Position numbers and translations under genes: made by a program
NCBI GenBank assembly: GCA_029243395.1
Contig: JAQWSE010000002.1
Location: 186,001 to 250,000, forward strand
DNA from: Paracoccaceae bacterium
GTDB taxonomy: Bacteria; Pseudomonadota; Alphaproteobacteria; Rhodobacterales; Rhodobacteraceae
Direction of reading: 5' to 3'
DNA length: 64,000 nucleotides
The notes under the pieces: generated by a model
The model's input: only the letters and a program-made list of their open reading frames with translations
The model's database searches: none
Told to the model about the DNA's origin: nothing
Part shown: in pieces, positions 56,797 through 62,788 of the stretch
Position numbering within the stretch: the first letter of the stretch is position 1
Layout: every line of letters begins with the position of its first letter

Positions 56797-57786
56797 ATGC
56801 ACAAAAACAAAATATTACTGTCAATAATTTTTCTATTTGTATTTAATTTTACCGCCCAGGCTTCATCAATTTTGACTGTTTATGCACCTGATTACTTTAC
56901 TTCCGAATGGGGTCCAGGGCCCAAGATTAAAAAAGCTTTTGAAAATGTTTGTAGTTGTGAATTACAATTTGTTCCAGGTGATCCACTGTCACGCCTTGGG
57001 TTAGAAGGAAGTAAAACCAAAGCAGATATTCTGATTGGTTTGAATTCTGACATTACTTTGAAAGCCAGAAATTTAGAATTGCTAGCCCCCCACAATATTT
57101 TAGATCCAATGCCAGAGCTTCCAATTAATTGGGAGGACAATCTGTTCTTACCTTTCAATTGGAGCTATGTTTCATTTGTCTTTGACAACACTAAAATTGT
57201 TGACCCGCCAAAAACATTTGTTGATCTTGCCAATGATCCTCGAGATTATAAAATCATAATACAAGACCCTAGAACATCACCAGCTGGATTAGCACTAATT
57301 TTATGGATTAAGACAATTTATGGTAATAAGGCTTCTGAGATTTGGTCTAATTTATCAGAAAAGATTTTGACAGTAACAAAAGGTTGGTCTGAAGCTTATG
57401 GAATGTTCACAGCTGGTGAATCTGAGATGGTACTATCTTTCTCTACATCACCAGCATATCATCAAATCATAGAAAATGATAATACAAAGTCCGCTCTGAT
57501 TTTGGAGGAAGGTCATTATGTTTATCTCGAGCTTGCAGCTAAGGTTAAAGGATCCAAAAACTCTGATTTAGCAGATAAATTTATGAAATTCATTTTATCA
57601 CCGGATTTTCAAAGCATAATTCCACTTACAAATTGGTCATATCCAGTCAAGCTTCAGGAAAGCAGCTGGCCACCAGAGTTTCAAGATTTACCCTATCCCA
57701 CCAAAGCTTTGTTCTTGAATGAGGATGAAGCCAGTAAACTCATTGAAATTGCGTTAGATGAATGGCTCACCATAATGTCAAGATAA
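56797..57786 (+). CDS. thiB: ThiB, thiamine-binding periplasmic protein
   Basis: 329 residues with a signal peptide (about 1-22). ThiB marks: LTVYAPDYFTSEWGPGPKIKKAFE (in part) and CELQFVPG near 50, GLEGSKTKADILIGL. It captures thiamine and its phosphates in the periplasm. It lies directly after the TPP riboswitch and overlaps thiP by 25 bp, consistent with thiamine uptake. Confidence 0.94.
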   Translation: MHKNKILLSIIFLFVFNFTAQASSILTVYAPDYFTSEWGPGPKIKKAFENVCSCELQFVPGDPLSRLGLEGSKTKADILIGLNSDITLKARNLELLAPHNILDPMPELPINWEDNLFLPFNWSYVSFVFDNTKIVDPPKTFVDLANDPRDYKIIIQDPRTSPAGLALILWIKTIYGNKASEIWSNLSEKILTVTKGWSEAYGMFTAGESEMVLSFSTSPAYHQIIENDNTKSALILEEGHYVYLELAAKVKGSKNSDLADKFMKFILSPDFQSIIPLTNWSYPVKLQESSWPPEFQDLPYPTKALFLNEDEASKLIEIALDEWLTIMSR

Positions 57787-59339
57787 ACGCTAATAATATA
57801 GTTTTTACACTATCGCTCCTATTTCTCACATTCATGACAATAGGTGCCATGGCCGTTACACTTGTATGGTCTGGGGAAAGACTAGTTTTATTATCCAGTT
57901 ATGAACTTACTGTTCTTATTTTTACCCTGAAACAAGCCATATTGTCTTCAACTTTAAGTTGCTGTTTGGCAATCCCCATTTCTAGGGCGTTATTCAGAAA
58001 AGATTTTTTATTAAAAGAATATTTAGTCAGTTTTTTAGGAATTCCTTTTATTTTGCCGACCATTGCTGCAATTTTTGGTCTCATCTTAGTTTTTGGCAAT
58101 AATGGTCTCTTAAACTCCTTACTAGTTTTCCTAGGCCTACCCAAACTAACAATTTATGGGTTACCAGGAATTCTCATAGCGCATGTTTTTTTTAATTTAC
58201 CTCTAGCTGTTAGAATATTGTTACTTGCCTGGAATGAAATTCCAAACGAGCAATTCAAACTTGCAGCTTCTCTAGATTTTACAAGAACTGATTTTTTCCG
58301 TCACATTGAATTACCCATGTTAAAATCTGCTCTTCCTAGGTTATTTCTTTTAATATTTTTGATTTGTGTCACGAGCTTTTCTATAGCTCTGACTTTGGGT
58401 GGTGGCCCGAGCTCAACGACATTGGAGGTTGCAATTTATCAGGCAGTACGTTTTCAGTTAGATTTTTCTAAAGCTGCCTCTTTAGCTTGTTTTCAGTTTA
58501 TGATGTGCGGCTCAGTCGCTTTTCTTTTGTTGATGGTAGGTAAAAGAAATTCGTCATTCAAGGCTTTGGATTTAAAAGTTAAGATCAATAATGCTTCATT
58601 CTTTAACCAAGGAATATTTGACTACGTGTGGATTTTTCTAATCTTTTGTTTTTTGTTAGTTCCACTCTTGCTACTATTTTACCATGGCTTAGGTGGTTTT
58701 TTTGAGCTCCAAACTACCGTTTATTTGGCTGCATTAAATTCACTGGTTCTATCTCTTCTATCAGGGTTTTTTGGAGTTCTCATAGCATTTTCTATTTCGT
58801 TATGGGTTGCTACTCCAGTATCTAATTCTTACAGCAAATACATAGAAATTCTTAGTATCTTCATTTTGGCCTCTTCCCCTATAGTAATGGGAACTGGTAT
58901 CTTTCTTATGTTAAAACCAATCATTTCTTATGAATATCTTACCCCATTACTAGTTATCTGCGTGAATGTGACTATGAGCTTACCTTTCATGCTACGCGCA
59001 TTAATCCCTGCAGTAAGTGCAGTTGAACAAGATCTAGGTAGATTGGCTGATAGCTTAAACATCGTGGGAGTTGATAGGATTAGAAATATCATTTTTCCGA
59101 GGGTGTCTTCAGCTATGGGGCTCTCTTTTGGGATAGGTTCAGCTTTATCTATGGGAGATTTAGGGGTGATAACATTTTTCTCATTTGGTGAATTCCAGAC
59201 ATTGCCTCTAGCAATATATAGATTGATGCTGTCCTACCGCATTGAACATGCATTTAGTGCTGCCTTATTGCTTGTTATGATTTGTTTCCTCCTTTTCCAT
59301 TGCTTTGACCTGTTGGGGAAATATTATGCTTCGCGTTAG
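57762..59339 (+). CDS. thiP: ThiP, thiamine ABC transporter permease
   Basis: 525 residues with two fused permease halves and about twelve membrane segments. EAA-type loops are visible near 165 (AASLDFTRTDFFRHIELP, in part) and near 425 (DSLNIVGVDRIRNIIFP). It forms the thiamine channel with ThiB and ThiQ. It ends 14 bp into thiQ. Confidence 0.93.
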   Translation: MAHHNVKINANNIVFTLSLLFLTFMTIGAMAVTLVWSGERLVLLSSYELTVLIFTLKQAILSSTLSCCLAIPISRALFRKDFLLKEYLVSFLGIPFILPTIAAIFGLILVFGNNGLLNSLLVFLGLPKLTIYGLPGILIAHVFFNLPLAVRILLLAWNEIPNEQFKLAASLDFTRTDFFRHIELPMLKSALPRLFLLIFLICVTSFSIALTLGGGPSSTTLEVAIYQAVRFQLDFSKAASLACFQFMMCGSVAFLLLMVGKRNSSFKALDLKVKINNASFFNQGIFDYVWIFLIFCFLLVPLLLLFYHGLGGFFELQTTVYLAALNSLVLSLLSGFFGVLIAFSISLWVATPVSNSYSKYIEILSIFILASSPIVMGTGIFLMLKPIISYEYLTPLLVICVNVTMSLPFMLRALIPAVSAVEQDLGRLADSLNIVGVDRIRNIIFPRVSSAMGLSFGIGSALSMGDLGVITFFSFGEFQTLPLAIYRLMLSYRIEHAFSAALLLVMICFLLFHCFDLLGKYYASR

Positions 59340-60021
59340 AAACTTACGAACAGGTTATAAAGACTTTCAACTTTCCGCAAATTTTGCAGTCCAGGAGCGT
59401 TCGCTAGTAGCCATTGTTGGTCCTTCTGGGTCAGGAAAAACAACTTTAATAAATACTATTGCGGGTTTCTTACCTGTTAATATTGGTGATGTGGAATGGA
59501 AAGAAGGAAGTATCACTAGTTTATCTCCTGGAAGGAGACCTGTTAGTGTATTATTTCAGGATCACAATTTATTCCCGCATCTTAATGTTGAAAGAAATGT
59601 TTCAATAGGATTGAAGGCCAACCTAAAATTAGATCCTAGCGAAAAGGAGAAAGTATTTGAAACTATTAGAAAAGTGGGATTAGAGAAATATATCACTAAA
59701 AAGCCTTCTGAACTATCAGGTGGACAAAGAACTCGGATAGCGCTGGCTAGAGTTATGCTTCGATGCAAACCATTACTGTTATTGGATGAAGCTTTTTTAG
59801 GTTTAGGTCCGGCATTACGTTTAGAAATGTTGGCTTTGATAATGGATTTTGTGCACGAAGAGAATATGACACTTTTGATGGTTACTCATGACATTAATGA
59901 TGCCATCAAATTAAACCAGAAAATCATCTTTACACATGATGGCCAAGTTATTGGTCCCATGGACATAGCTGAATTCCTGGGATCTTCTGATTTGAGGTTT
60001 AGACAATATTTGGGAAGTTGA
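59326..60021 (+). CDS. thiQ: ThiQ, thiamine ABC transporter ATPase
   Basis: 231 residues from the ATG at 59326 (a start at 59305 lies too deep in thiP). Walker A GPSGSGKTT at 32-40, signature LSGGQRTR near 128, Walker B LLLLDEAFLGLGP. It powers thiamine import. The 14-bp overlap with thiP implies coupled translation. Confidence 0.94.
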   Translation: MLRVRNLRTGYKDFQLSANFAVQERSLVAIVGPSGSGKTTLINTIAGFLPVNIGDVEWKEGSITSLSPGRRPVSVLFQDHNLFPHLNVERNVSIGLKANLKLDPSEKEKVFETIRKVGLEKYITKKPSELSGGQRTRIALARVMLRCKPLLLLDEAFLGLGPALRLEMLALIMDFVHEENMTLLMVTHDINDAIKLNQKIIFTHDGQVIGPMDIAEFLGSSDLRFRQYLGS

Positions 60022-60070: not shown

Positions 60071-60676
60071 TTATTTCAGGTGAATTTTCAAGAGAGTTTT
60101 AGAGAATTCAAAATTTTTAAACTTATTCAATAAATCCATACCGAGCAAGGATTTATTGGGACCCTCAAAATTCTCGGAAACGACCAACAATTCTGATGGA
60201 CCGAGTTGGTGATTATATACTTTCACATCTTCAATGGTTACCTGTTTTGCAAAAATAGAACCATTTGCTGTATCAAGCTGTGTTATTTCGGGTTCAACTT
60301 TGATATTCTGACCCAGGTAGGTTAGATCCTCTTTAGAAAGTAGAGTGCGTGTTGCTCCCGTATCGACGAGGAATGTTATTGGTTTTTTATTTAATTCTAG
60401 GGTCAAATAAAAATGACCATCAGGGGCTTTTTGAATGATCAAGTTGCCATTAGAGGATGCTTGTAATTCGTATTGCTTATGGAGAATATTTAAGCGAATA
60501 TCAGCCCAAATATAGTAGCAGGCTATCGCTCCAAAAAATATCAGAAACCAAATTGATAAATTTTGTAGGTTTTTATTCAAGTGTCTTCTGTTAGATAAGA
60601 GAAATAGCACTAGCAAGATTACTAATATTACCACTAAATATAATAGACTAGAAAAATTAATATTAGAAAAGCTCAT
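60071..60676 (-). CDS. Membrane retropepsin-like aspartic protease
   Basis: 201 residues. Two membrane segments at about 10-28 and 42-58, then a periplasmic aspartic-protease domain with the single catalytic FLVDTGATRTLLS (Asp 105) and the GMDLLNKF turn near 187. It matches the clan AA TIGR02281-type proteins, which act as dimers. Substrate unknown. It is divergent from the dehydratase, separated by 232 bp that contains a 26-bp palindrome. Confidence 0.85.
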   Translation of the reverse strand: MSFSNINFSSLLYLVVILVILLVLFLLSNRRHLNKNLQNLSIWFLIFFGAIACYYIWADIRLNILHKQYELQASSNGNLIIQKAPDGHFYLTLELNKKPITFLVDTGATRTLLSKEDLTYLGQNIKVEPEITQLDTANGSIFAKQVTIEDVKVYNHQLGPSELLVVSENFEGPNKSLLGMDLLNKFKNFEFSKTLLKIHLK

Positions 60677-60767
60677 ACGAAATCTTAGGGTATTTTTAGG
60701 AATATTAATAGTGGAAGTGAGTTTTATAAGTATGGGTAGGTTTTGAGTAAAAATGGGAGGATTCAGG

Positions 60768-60793
60768 TATTTAGTTTAACGTTAAACTAAATA
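60768..60793. promoter_or_regulatory. Perfect 26-bp palindrome, candidate operator
   Basis: TATTTAGTTTAAC (60768-60780) is followed directly by its exact inverse complement (60781-60793), with no spacer. It lies between the divergent retropepsin and dehydratase genes, 92 bp from the former start and 115 bp from the latter. A no-spacer dyad of this size suits binding of a dimeric regulator. No matching regulator gene is adjacent. Confidence 0.55.
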
Positions 60794-60908
60794 AATAGTG
60801 TGATTTTAATAATCATAGATTTAGCCTTAGATTTTTTCAGTTTGTCAGTTACTACTTGATGATGTATAAGACTATTGTCAAGGGTAGCATATATGGTGGT
60901 AGGTAGTT

Positions 60909-61877
60909 TTGAGTAAAGATCTGGATTTAAAGGCAATGCAAGAGTCGAGGAATTTTCTTGTAGGCAAAATAGTGAACACACCTATGTTAGAGCTTTCTGG
61001 CACCAAAATTAAAAATTTTATGCCAAAGAACACTGATGTCAGGATGAAGCTAGAGTTATTTCAGCATACTGGATCCTTTAAAAGCAGAGGGGCACTCCTA
61101 GCTGTGAACAAACTTTCAACAAAACAAAAAAAAATTGGAGTAGTTGCTGTCAGTGCAGGAAACCATGCGTTGGCTGTATCCTGGGCTGCAAATTGTGCTA
61201 ACTTACATGCAAAAGTTGTGATGCTTGAAAAATCAGATCCCATTCGTATACAGGGGTGTAGGAACTTTGGAGCTGAGGTAATTTTATGTTCCGACGTAAG
61301 AGAAGCTTTTTCTACGATGGAAGGCATCGCCAATTCAGAAGGTAGGGTCATTTTGCAACCTTTCGATTCCAAAGAAATGATCCTCGGTTCAGCTTCGTGC
61401 GGCCTCGAAATCATTGAAAATTTCCCAGAACTTGAAGTGGCAATAATACCGGTTGGTGGCGGAGGTTTAATTTCAGGAATTGCGGCAGCAATCAAGCAGT
61501 CAAAACCCTCAACAATTATTTATGGGGTAGAACCTGAAGGAGCTGATTCTATGTATAGGAGTTTTCAAAGCCAAAAAGCACTCAAACTGGACACAGTGGA
61601 TACAATTGCTGATAGTCTTGGTGCTCCTATGGCTATGAGTTATTCTTTTGGAATAGCCCAAAATTTTGTTGATGCTATTGTCCGGGTTAGGGATGAAGAA
61701 CTTGTTTCAGCAATGAAACTTATGCGGGACAATTTGAACTTTATGGTTGAACCTGCTTGCGCAGCATCTTTAGCTGGGCTTTTAGGGCCATTGAAAGAAA
61801 TGGTTGGGGAGAAGGCCATTTCTATAATAGCATGTGGCTCGAATATTTCTTACGAGCGTTATCAAAAGTTGGTCTAG
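60909..61877 (+). CDS. PLP-dependent threonine/serine dehydratase-like enzyme
   Basis: 322 residues from a TTG start at 60909. The PLP Lys is residue 58 in TGSFKSRGA, and the phosphate-binding GGGGLISG lies near 185. Family members deaminate threonine, serine or 3-hydroxyaspartate; the EutB hydroxyectoine branch is also similar. No ilv or ectoine genes are next to it. It is too short for the regulatory domain of biosynthetic IlvA, so it is catabolic-type. Confidence 0.85.
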   Translation: MSKDLDLKAMQESRNFLVGKIVNTPMLELSGTKIKNFMPKNTDVRMKLELFQHTGSFKSRGALLAVNKLSTKQKKIGVVAVSAGNHALAVSWAANCANLHAKVVMLEKSDPIRIQGCRNFGAEVILCSDVREAFSTMEGIANSEGRVILQPFDSKEMILGSASCGLEIIENFPELEVAIIPVGGGGLISGIAAAIKQSKPSTIIYGVEPEGADSMYRSFQSQKALKLDTVDTIADSLGAPMAMSYSFGIAQNFVDAIVRVRDEELVSAMKLMRDNLNFMVEPACAASLAGLLGPLKEMVGEKAISIIACGSNISYERYQKLV

Positions 61878-61973: not shown

Positions 61974-62788
61974 GTGAATTTAGCAAGAAAAAACATTGTG
62001 GTCACCGGAGCCGCTAGTGGAATAGGTGAGGCATTGGCTAGGCATTTTGTCAAGTTGAAGGCAAACGTTTTTTAGCTGACATAGACCAACCGAGATTAAG
62101 TCTTGTTGCGGAGACATTGAGCTGCTCCTATTATGTATGTGACGTAGCAAATGAGGAGAATATCCTTGCGCTAGTGAATCAGGCAGATACTGAATTAGGC
62201 CAAATAGACCTATTTTGTTCTAATGCCGGAATCCTTTTTAAGGGTGAAGCAGCCCCTCTAGCGTTAGATGAGCAATATTGGATGAAATCTTGGTGTGTTA
62301 ATGTTATGTCACATGTTTATGCAGCTCGGTATGTTTTACCTCAAATGATACAAAGGCAATCAGGTTATTTCCTTCAGATAATATCAGCTGCAGCTTTGCT
62401 ATCACAGATAGGAGCACCAGCTTATTCTGCTACCAAAAGCGCTGCATTGAGTTTTGCAGAGTCATTAGCAATTAGTTATGGTCATAAGGGGATTAAAGTT
62501 TCTGCAGCATGTCCCCAGTACGTGGCAACACCCATGCTTGGTTTTGAAGACACCAAGCTACCGAGAGATGCTAAGAACTTAATTTCTGCCGATGAAGCAG
62601 CACTACGAATTATTGATGGGGTGCTCCAAGAAAAGTTCTTAATCCTTACAGATTCCGATTTAATAAAATTCTTTGAACGAAAACGCAAAGATTACGATCA
62701 ATGGATAATCGGAATGCAAAGGTTGCAAAATAAAATTGCTCATGAAACAGGAGAAATAAATTTAGACCATATGTATAAATTTATTTAG
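61974..62788 (+). pseudogene. SDR oxidoreductase broken by a single-base frameshift
   Basis: A GTG start at 61974 with GGAG five bases upstream opens a good SDR N-terminus (IVVTGAASGIGEALARHFV), but the frame ends at TAG (62072-62074). One base back in register, the family continues (ADIDQPRLSLVAE), then NAGIL near 80, YSATKSA (the YxxxK site) and ACPQYVATPM. Adding one T to the T6 run (62068-62073) restores VFLADID and one 271-residue protein. It may be a real pseudogene or a sequencing/assembly homopolymer error. Confidence 0.85.

Follow-up and report, generated by a model that had tools for sequence, protein, structure and literature searches.

Besides the MarR-family operators in general, two regulators are close to the system described here. 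In gamma-proteobacteria, pyruvate dehydrogenase genes are controlled through palindromic operators by PdhR, a GntR-family regulator dedicated to pyruvate metabolism, according to the excerpts of the source considered (PMC5343134). In alpha-proteobacteria, control of central carbon metabolism is attributed to the LacI-family regulator CceR, which also affects MaeB, as stated in excerpts of a second source (PMC11323563). Searches of the open-licence PMC literature found neither a link between MarR-family regulators and pyruvate dehydrogenase nor a regulator of pyruvate dehydrogenase for Rhodobacteraceae, and a query with the operator string returned no paper on such an operator among the matches listed. 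The system presented here would be an uncharacterised MarR regulon.

The control of pyruvate dehydrogenase decides the entry of carbon into the TCA cycle. Starting from a palindrome in a 64,000-nucleotide stretch of DNA (hereafter the window) of a Paracoccaceae bacterium, we consider it likely, judging from comparative sequence analysis, that this palindrome serves as operator for a dimeric MarR-family regulator controlling the pyruvate node in Rhodobacteraceae.

The palindrome and its surroundings

The features relevant to the palindrome are the following.

60768..60793, no strand: 26-bp perfect palindrome (13+13, spacerless)
60771..60790, no strand: conserved 20-bp core TTAGTTTAACGTTAAACTAA, predicted operator
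60071..60676, minus strand: clan AA aspartic protease (TIGR02281), divergent neighbour and possible second target
60909..61877, plus strand: PALP-fold Ser/Thr-dehydratase-like gene, probable target
62117..62788, plus strand: short-chain dehydrogenase frame, downstream; start uncertain
60842..60870, plus strand: possible sigma-70 promoter of the dehydratase gene, read by eye (TTGTCA at 60842-60847, 17 nt, TATAAG at 60865-60870)

The palindrome (60768-60793, TATTTAGTTTAACGTTAAACTAAATA) consists of two 13-nt arms that are 100% complementary, with a spacer of 0 nt. It is the longest spacerless palindrome within the window; the runner-up has arms of 8+8. In 60 copies of the window generated with a third-order Markov model, a 12-nt arm arose once in total and a 13-nt arm never. 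The initial annotation had described a perfect palindrome with arms longer than chance, located between divergent genes for a membrane protease and a PLP dehydratase, and these statements hold.

The conserved unit among relatives is a core of 20–22 bp (TTAGTTTAANNTTAAACTAA) with half-site arms TTAGTTTAA; its 22-bp matrix match begins at 60770. Among relatives, the outer pairs and the CG at the centre vary; the perfect symmetry over 26 bp is thus partly luck and, in the sequences compared, not what is conserved.

The protease gene, presumably with an N-terminal membrane segment as read by eye, starts with ATG at 60676, 104 bp from the palindrome centre. The TTG start of the dehydratase gene, at 60909, is 128 bp away on the other side. 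Its top NCBIfam match is threonine ammonia-lyase (TIGR01127), below the cut-off of that model, and none of the best 25 of 38 matching models was above its cut-off. The short-chain dehydrogenase frame possibly belongs to the same operon as the dehydratase. Immediately to the left of the protease, at 56797-60021, is an operon resembling thiBPQ, for a thiamine ABC transporter, and no operator was noticed there. PdhA uses thiamine diphosphate as its cofactor.

The hexamers of the putative dehydratase promoter are conserved in genomes G000, G001, G002 and G009 and largely in G008. A consensus promoter scanner omitted this promoter, its rule requiring a T at the end of the second hexamer; it reported a single promoter near the site, on the minus strand, below the mean of 2.1 for shuffled sequence. 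The palindrome is about 60 bp upstream of the putative -35 hexamer, away from the position typical of the other targets described below (mostly 24–50 bp before the start codon).

Conservation and recurrence of the predicted operator

The genus sample comprised 12 genomes; the window's own genome has 13 contigs and a size of 2.49 Mb. Eight of the 12 have a close dehydratase orthologue, with 68–100% identity. One of them, G009, was set aside, as its contig begins 81 bp upstream of the gene. In all seven genomes with upstream DNA the dyad is in place, while most of the spacer around it differs. Such retention upstream of orthologues amid diverging flanks is the behaviour of an operator. Counted from the centre, the pairing is perfect over 10 pairs in G002 and 7 in G008, and in others it breaks at or near the centre. 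No such site was found in the four genus genomes without a close dehydratase orthologue.

In the own genome, the 22-mer had a single match at up to three mismatches. A copy upstream of pdhA escaped this strict search because both its flanks and its centre are different; it was recovered with the 20-bp core once the centre was left unconstrained. Weaker 16-mer look-alikes in this genome were rejected as background, with 15 matches against 40 for the reversed control. Across the genus, the core at up to two mismatches yielded 25 forward matches compared to 12 for the reversed control (row sums, 12 genomes), and 21 of the 25 fall on three targets: the dehydratase (7), pdhA (8) and htpG (6). The remaining four are off target (L159 and L160, both inside frames, and one match each in G004:C57 and G011:C22).

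The pdhA site lies in the ftsB-pdhA gap, 13–17 bp before pdhA, in 8 of the 12 genomes (G000, G001, G003, G004, G005, G007, G008 and G011). PdhA was identified by TIGR03182, above the cut-off, and HtpG by NF003555. The centre of the pdhA sites reads TA, TG or CA, in contrast to CG in the window copy. The copy in G000 (L148, G000:C11:88262-88281) is perfect over 22+22 bp and reaches into the start codon, and that in G001 (L136) is perfect over 20+20; their outer arms differ by symmetric base changes. A hairpin might form over the pdhA start. The htpG site lies in the pdxA-htpG gap in 6 of the 12 genomes (G003, G004, G006, G007, G010 and G011; loci L139, L140, L142, L143, L145 and L154). HtpG is an Hsp90 chaperone.

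Among 390 genomes belonging to the order, the exact core turned up only twice. The reason is that the family consensus is ATAGTTTAAcGTTAAACTAT; allowing three mismatches solved this: of 120 family genomes, 78 had a match, compared to 37 with a control match (row count). In other genera, 48 of the 56 loci examined, among the matches listed, are pdhA (21), maeB (14) or lpd (13). The distance from the dyad centre to the aligned start at these 48 loci is 12–66 bp, and 24–50 bp in 44 of them. The other eight are L186, L197, L208, L214, L217, L220, L240 and L239, the last being aceE for a homodimeric-type E1. Of the listed matches that had no locus assigned, 28 were retrieved and about 21 omitted; the latter are mostly AT-rich look-alikes (six in G000, five in G001, eight in the AT-rich G425 and one each in G480 and G410). 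Lpd scored above the TIGR01350 cut-off in the NCBIfam/Pfam comparison. The malic enzyme (MaeB) fell below the NF009501 subfamily cut-off, with malic and PTA domains present.

The consensus of the 48 other-genus sites is AATAGTTTAACGTTAAACTATT. A matrix built from them scores the window site at 33.1 and the next site in the window at 13.2; the maximum in 20 Markov copies of the window was 17.2. Within the genus, maeB is present in 9 of 12 genomes, and none of the nine carries an operator site upstream of it (best matrix score 3.6). With maeB lacking the site and the dehydratase and htpG carrying it, the genus has a target set of its own. The recurrence before functionally linked genes, including the pdhA copy in the own genome, is the pattern of a regulon.

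Three readings were weighed against these data. The window is AT-rich (GC 0.377), and the arms at some copies exceed what an operator needs, as might be seen if AT-rich symmetry had arisen by chance or as a DNA-structure artefact of template switching. We regard this as next to negligible: such arms are improbable in the Markov copies, the dyad is kept in place in seven of seven genomes and, in genera richer in GC, identical letters precede the same small set of genes, so that conservation already contradicts it.

Alternatively, the dyad could work as RNA, forming a leader hairpin or terminator, with no protein site involved. Several copies directly follow a stop codon (ftsB/pdhA, pdxA/htpG), the symmetry at pdhA of G000 runs into the start codon with symmetric outer-arm changes in G001, and locus L083 shows a long palindrome between convergent genes. 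However, letters of the core are kept across genera beyond what mere pairing demands (48-site matrix), and the window copy lies between divergent genes, upstream of a likely plus-strand promoter. A terminator-like site was sought in 60600-60960, and no G+C-rich stem with a T run was found. The presence of the dyad also follows a DNA-binding protein (see below), and an RNA function is therefore very improbable.

The sequence comparison gives good support to the third reading, that of a dimeric regulator's binding site, since the dyad is kept amid drifting flanks, recurs before a few genes and follows a MarR orthologue. Concerning the proposals of the initial annotation, the conservation test set beforehand found the dyad present upstream of orthologues in all seven genomes that reach the region, and the suggested genome search uncovered a second core, perfect over 20 bp and with a different centre, before pdhA. 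Its idea of a dimeric-regulator site is strengthened; its idea of joint control of both divergent genes is not, as the site goes with the dehydratase.

In a wide contig collection, the exact core occurs in 89 genome stretches. The Rhodobacteraceae/Paracoccaceae records among them are mostly upstream of maeB (ten, L134 by eye) and pdhA (six, L135 by eye). Two Rhodobacteraceae-type records (L083, L084) carry, between folD and a gene convergent with it, a long palindrome that contains this core and may be a terminator or an operator. The core precedes a glyoxalase-fold dioxygenase-like or a YceI-like gene in records of Balneolaceae and other Bacteroidota types (L050, L058, L064, L068, L121, L122, L126; L063, L111, L118, L127; genes were named by eye and grouped by blastp, except L127, which was placed by eye).

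The candidate MarR regulator and its co-occurrence with the predicted operator

MarR genes were sought because MarR-like genes of other phyla carry the core before their own start, 27–29 bp upstream in loci L048, L071, L082, L093 and L125, all outside the family (the L093 protein is slightly below the Pfam cut-off). In the genus, a single MarR orthologue stands out, detected by two Pfam models in 11 of 12 genomes.

G000:C4:66986-67423: candidate MarR, 146 aa, PF12802 and PF01047 above cut-off

Its neighbours, as we read them by eye, are presumably a carbon-nitrogen-hydrolase-like gene on one side and, on the other, a short gene with a ubiG-like one beyond it. Weaker MarR-like matches in the genus are G000:C2:106874, barely over the PF12802 cut-off, and short frames over a MarR Pfam cut-off in G003:C19 and G006:C2. 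The nearest solved chains to the candidate are of MarR type (best 2a61, E 1.6e-8). Against NCBIfam no equivalog was found, the top model being SlyA with 32 bits at a cut-off of 120. The DNA-recognition segment is nearly invariant across 43 aligned loci. Genome G002 has the operator, with no MarR in its 1.0 Mb at 73% completeness.

No operator was found upstream of the MarR gene in any of the 43 loci (41 distinct; best matrix score 1.3), and these regions serve as a fair null for the matrix. Likewise, among the targets seen, none had the MarR gene next to it. MarR genes usually lie beside a target or are autoregulated, not obligatorily so. A search for an adjacent or autoregulated transcription factor as the regulator failed.

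In the family, the MarR orthologue (E 1e-33 or better) is present in 100 of 120 genomes. The motif was found in 73 of these 100 compared to 5 of the 20 genomes without MarR (Fisher p 8e-5). Restricted to genomes at least 90% complete, the numbers are 69 of 92 and 1 of 15 (Fisher p 6e-7). The lone well-covered genome with the motif and without MarR (G442) has 3 matches versus 14 for the control. The other four (G425, G446, G453 and G466) are 74–83% complete; the pdhA site is real in G425 and G466, which are exceptions if MarR is truly absent there.

The region upstream of pdhA was scored with the matrix in all 15 well-covered genomes without MarR and in 15 of the 27 genomes with MarR and no motif match. 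A pdhA of this type (E 1e-80) was absent from seven of the former, and in an eighth (G459, set aside) the contig begins inside pdhA, leaving seven informative genomes. The dyad was present in 14 of the 15 genomes with MarR (scores 9.5–30.3) and in 0 of the 7 without (best -4.2; p 5e-5). In the remaining genome with MarR, G415, the site is poor at most (-1.1). A score cut of 9 was chosen after the scores were known, with a wide gap between 9.5 and -1.1. The sites in these genomes with MarR are 25–50 bp from the start, and 114 bp in G017.

In a pdhA protein tree (n=43), genomes without MarR are scattered: parsimony requires 8 changes, of which at least 4 are forced by well supported branches, with a warning of long branches for G000, G425, G404 and G457. 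Shared ancestry is thus no explanation for the link between operator and MarR. As far as these genomes tell, operator and MarR were lost together repeatedly. The operators are present or absent together with the regulator, as in a MarR regulon, except in the incomplete genomes G425 and G466.

The operator could still be that of a regulator from another family, of LacI type (e.g. CceR) or TetR type, that happens to have been lost along with MarR. A central CG is usual for LacI-type operators, and the window copy has one. Joint loss with another factor is also compatible with the co-occurrence analysis, which among transcription-factor families covered MarR only. Furthermore, MaeB falls upon deletion of cceR in Paracoccus denitrificans, as reported in the part of the source considered (PMC11323563). 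On the other hand, the pdhA copies of the genus centre on TA, TG or CA, and the targets here are pdhA, maeB and lpd, whereas those given for CceR in that part are Entner-Doudoroff, Embden-Meyerhof and gluconeogenic enzymes (PMC11323563). Given, in addition, that operator and MarR are repeatedly absent together, we judge a regulator of another family unlikely. We conclude from these distributions that one so far unnamed MarR-type regulator probably binds the dyad.

This conclusion concerns Rhodobacteraceae. That the exact core marks one regulator everywhere was considered for the 89 stretches and dropped; SAR11, Balneolaceae and gamma-proteobacterial copies precede other genes. All 11 Pelagibacteraceae (SAR11) exact-core records have TTAGTTTAAATTTAAACTAA 22–40 bp before a proteorhodopsin gene (L055, L056, L062, L065, L079, L089, L096, L098, L099, L101 and L131; the gene was identified by Pfam in L062, blastp grouped ten of the records and L131 was assigned by eye). 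In the 10 records that include the opposite side, an acyl-CoA-synthetase-like gene runs divergently. A search for the Rhodobacteraceae MarR in 11 SAR11 genomes gave 0 matches. With an identical core and no such MarR in SAR11, the core sequence alone does not name the regulator, and the SAR11 core is likely to be served by another one.

Proposed regulon and comparison with known systems

In the mechanism that we propose, a MarR dimer would bind the 20–22 bp dyad. At pdhA, maeB and lpd, a dimer bound mostly 24–50 bp before the start codon would block RNA polymerase; owing to this position near the transcript start, repression relieved by a signal is the likeliest mode. The signal might be a small ligand from pyruvate metabolism or a redox signal. 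The window site is upstream of the likely dehydratase promoter, so that activation, or repression of another promoter including that of the protease, could apply there. The deamination of an amino acid to a 2-oxo acid would then be tied to how much the pyruvate dehydrogenase complex can handle. The 2-oxo acid would be pyruvate if the substrate of the dehydratase is serine.

The best reading of the genus data is that a Ser/Thr-dehydratase-like gene and htpG were recruited into a MarR-type pyruvate-node regulon and that maeB lost its site. Beyond the genus, we lean towards the view that in Rhodobacteraceae a MarR-type regulator, not PdhR, is the master switch of pyruvate dehydrogenase and that its operator set is evolving: the small-genome lineage would have lost the maeB site and gained those at the dehydratase and htpG, and regulator and operators would have vanished jointly in several lineages, some of which would also have lost the pdhA of this type. 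The analysis points to one small candidate protein and gives its predicted operators, and rewiring of a regulon becomes visible within one genus.

The letters of the PdhR operator motif are presumably unlike those of the dyad described here. The candidate regulator belongs to the MarR family and not, as PdhR, to the GntR family, its gene is not beside the targets, and maeB is a frequent target. The likeness to PdhR, for which palindromic operators at pyruvate dehydrogenase genes are described (PMC5343134), is that such operators are predicted here as well. With CceR, the system would share the control of central carbon metabolism in the same family and the effect on MaeB; it differs from this LacI-family protein, for which the excerpts give a broad regulon (PMC11323563), in that the pdhA sites have no constant central CG. 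The operators of MarR, SlyA, HpaR and OhrR resemble the one described here as symmetric AT-rich dyads of about 20 bp. Compared to the MarR family in general, the system is distinguished by a MarR gene without an operator of its own and by targets that are core enzymes of pyruvate metabolism.
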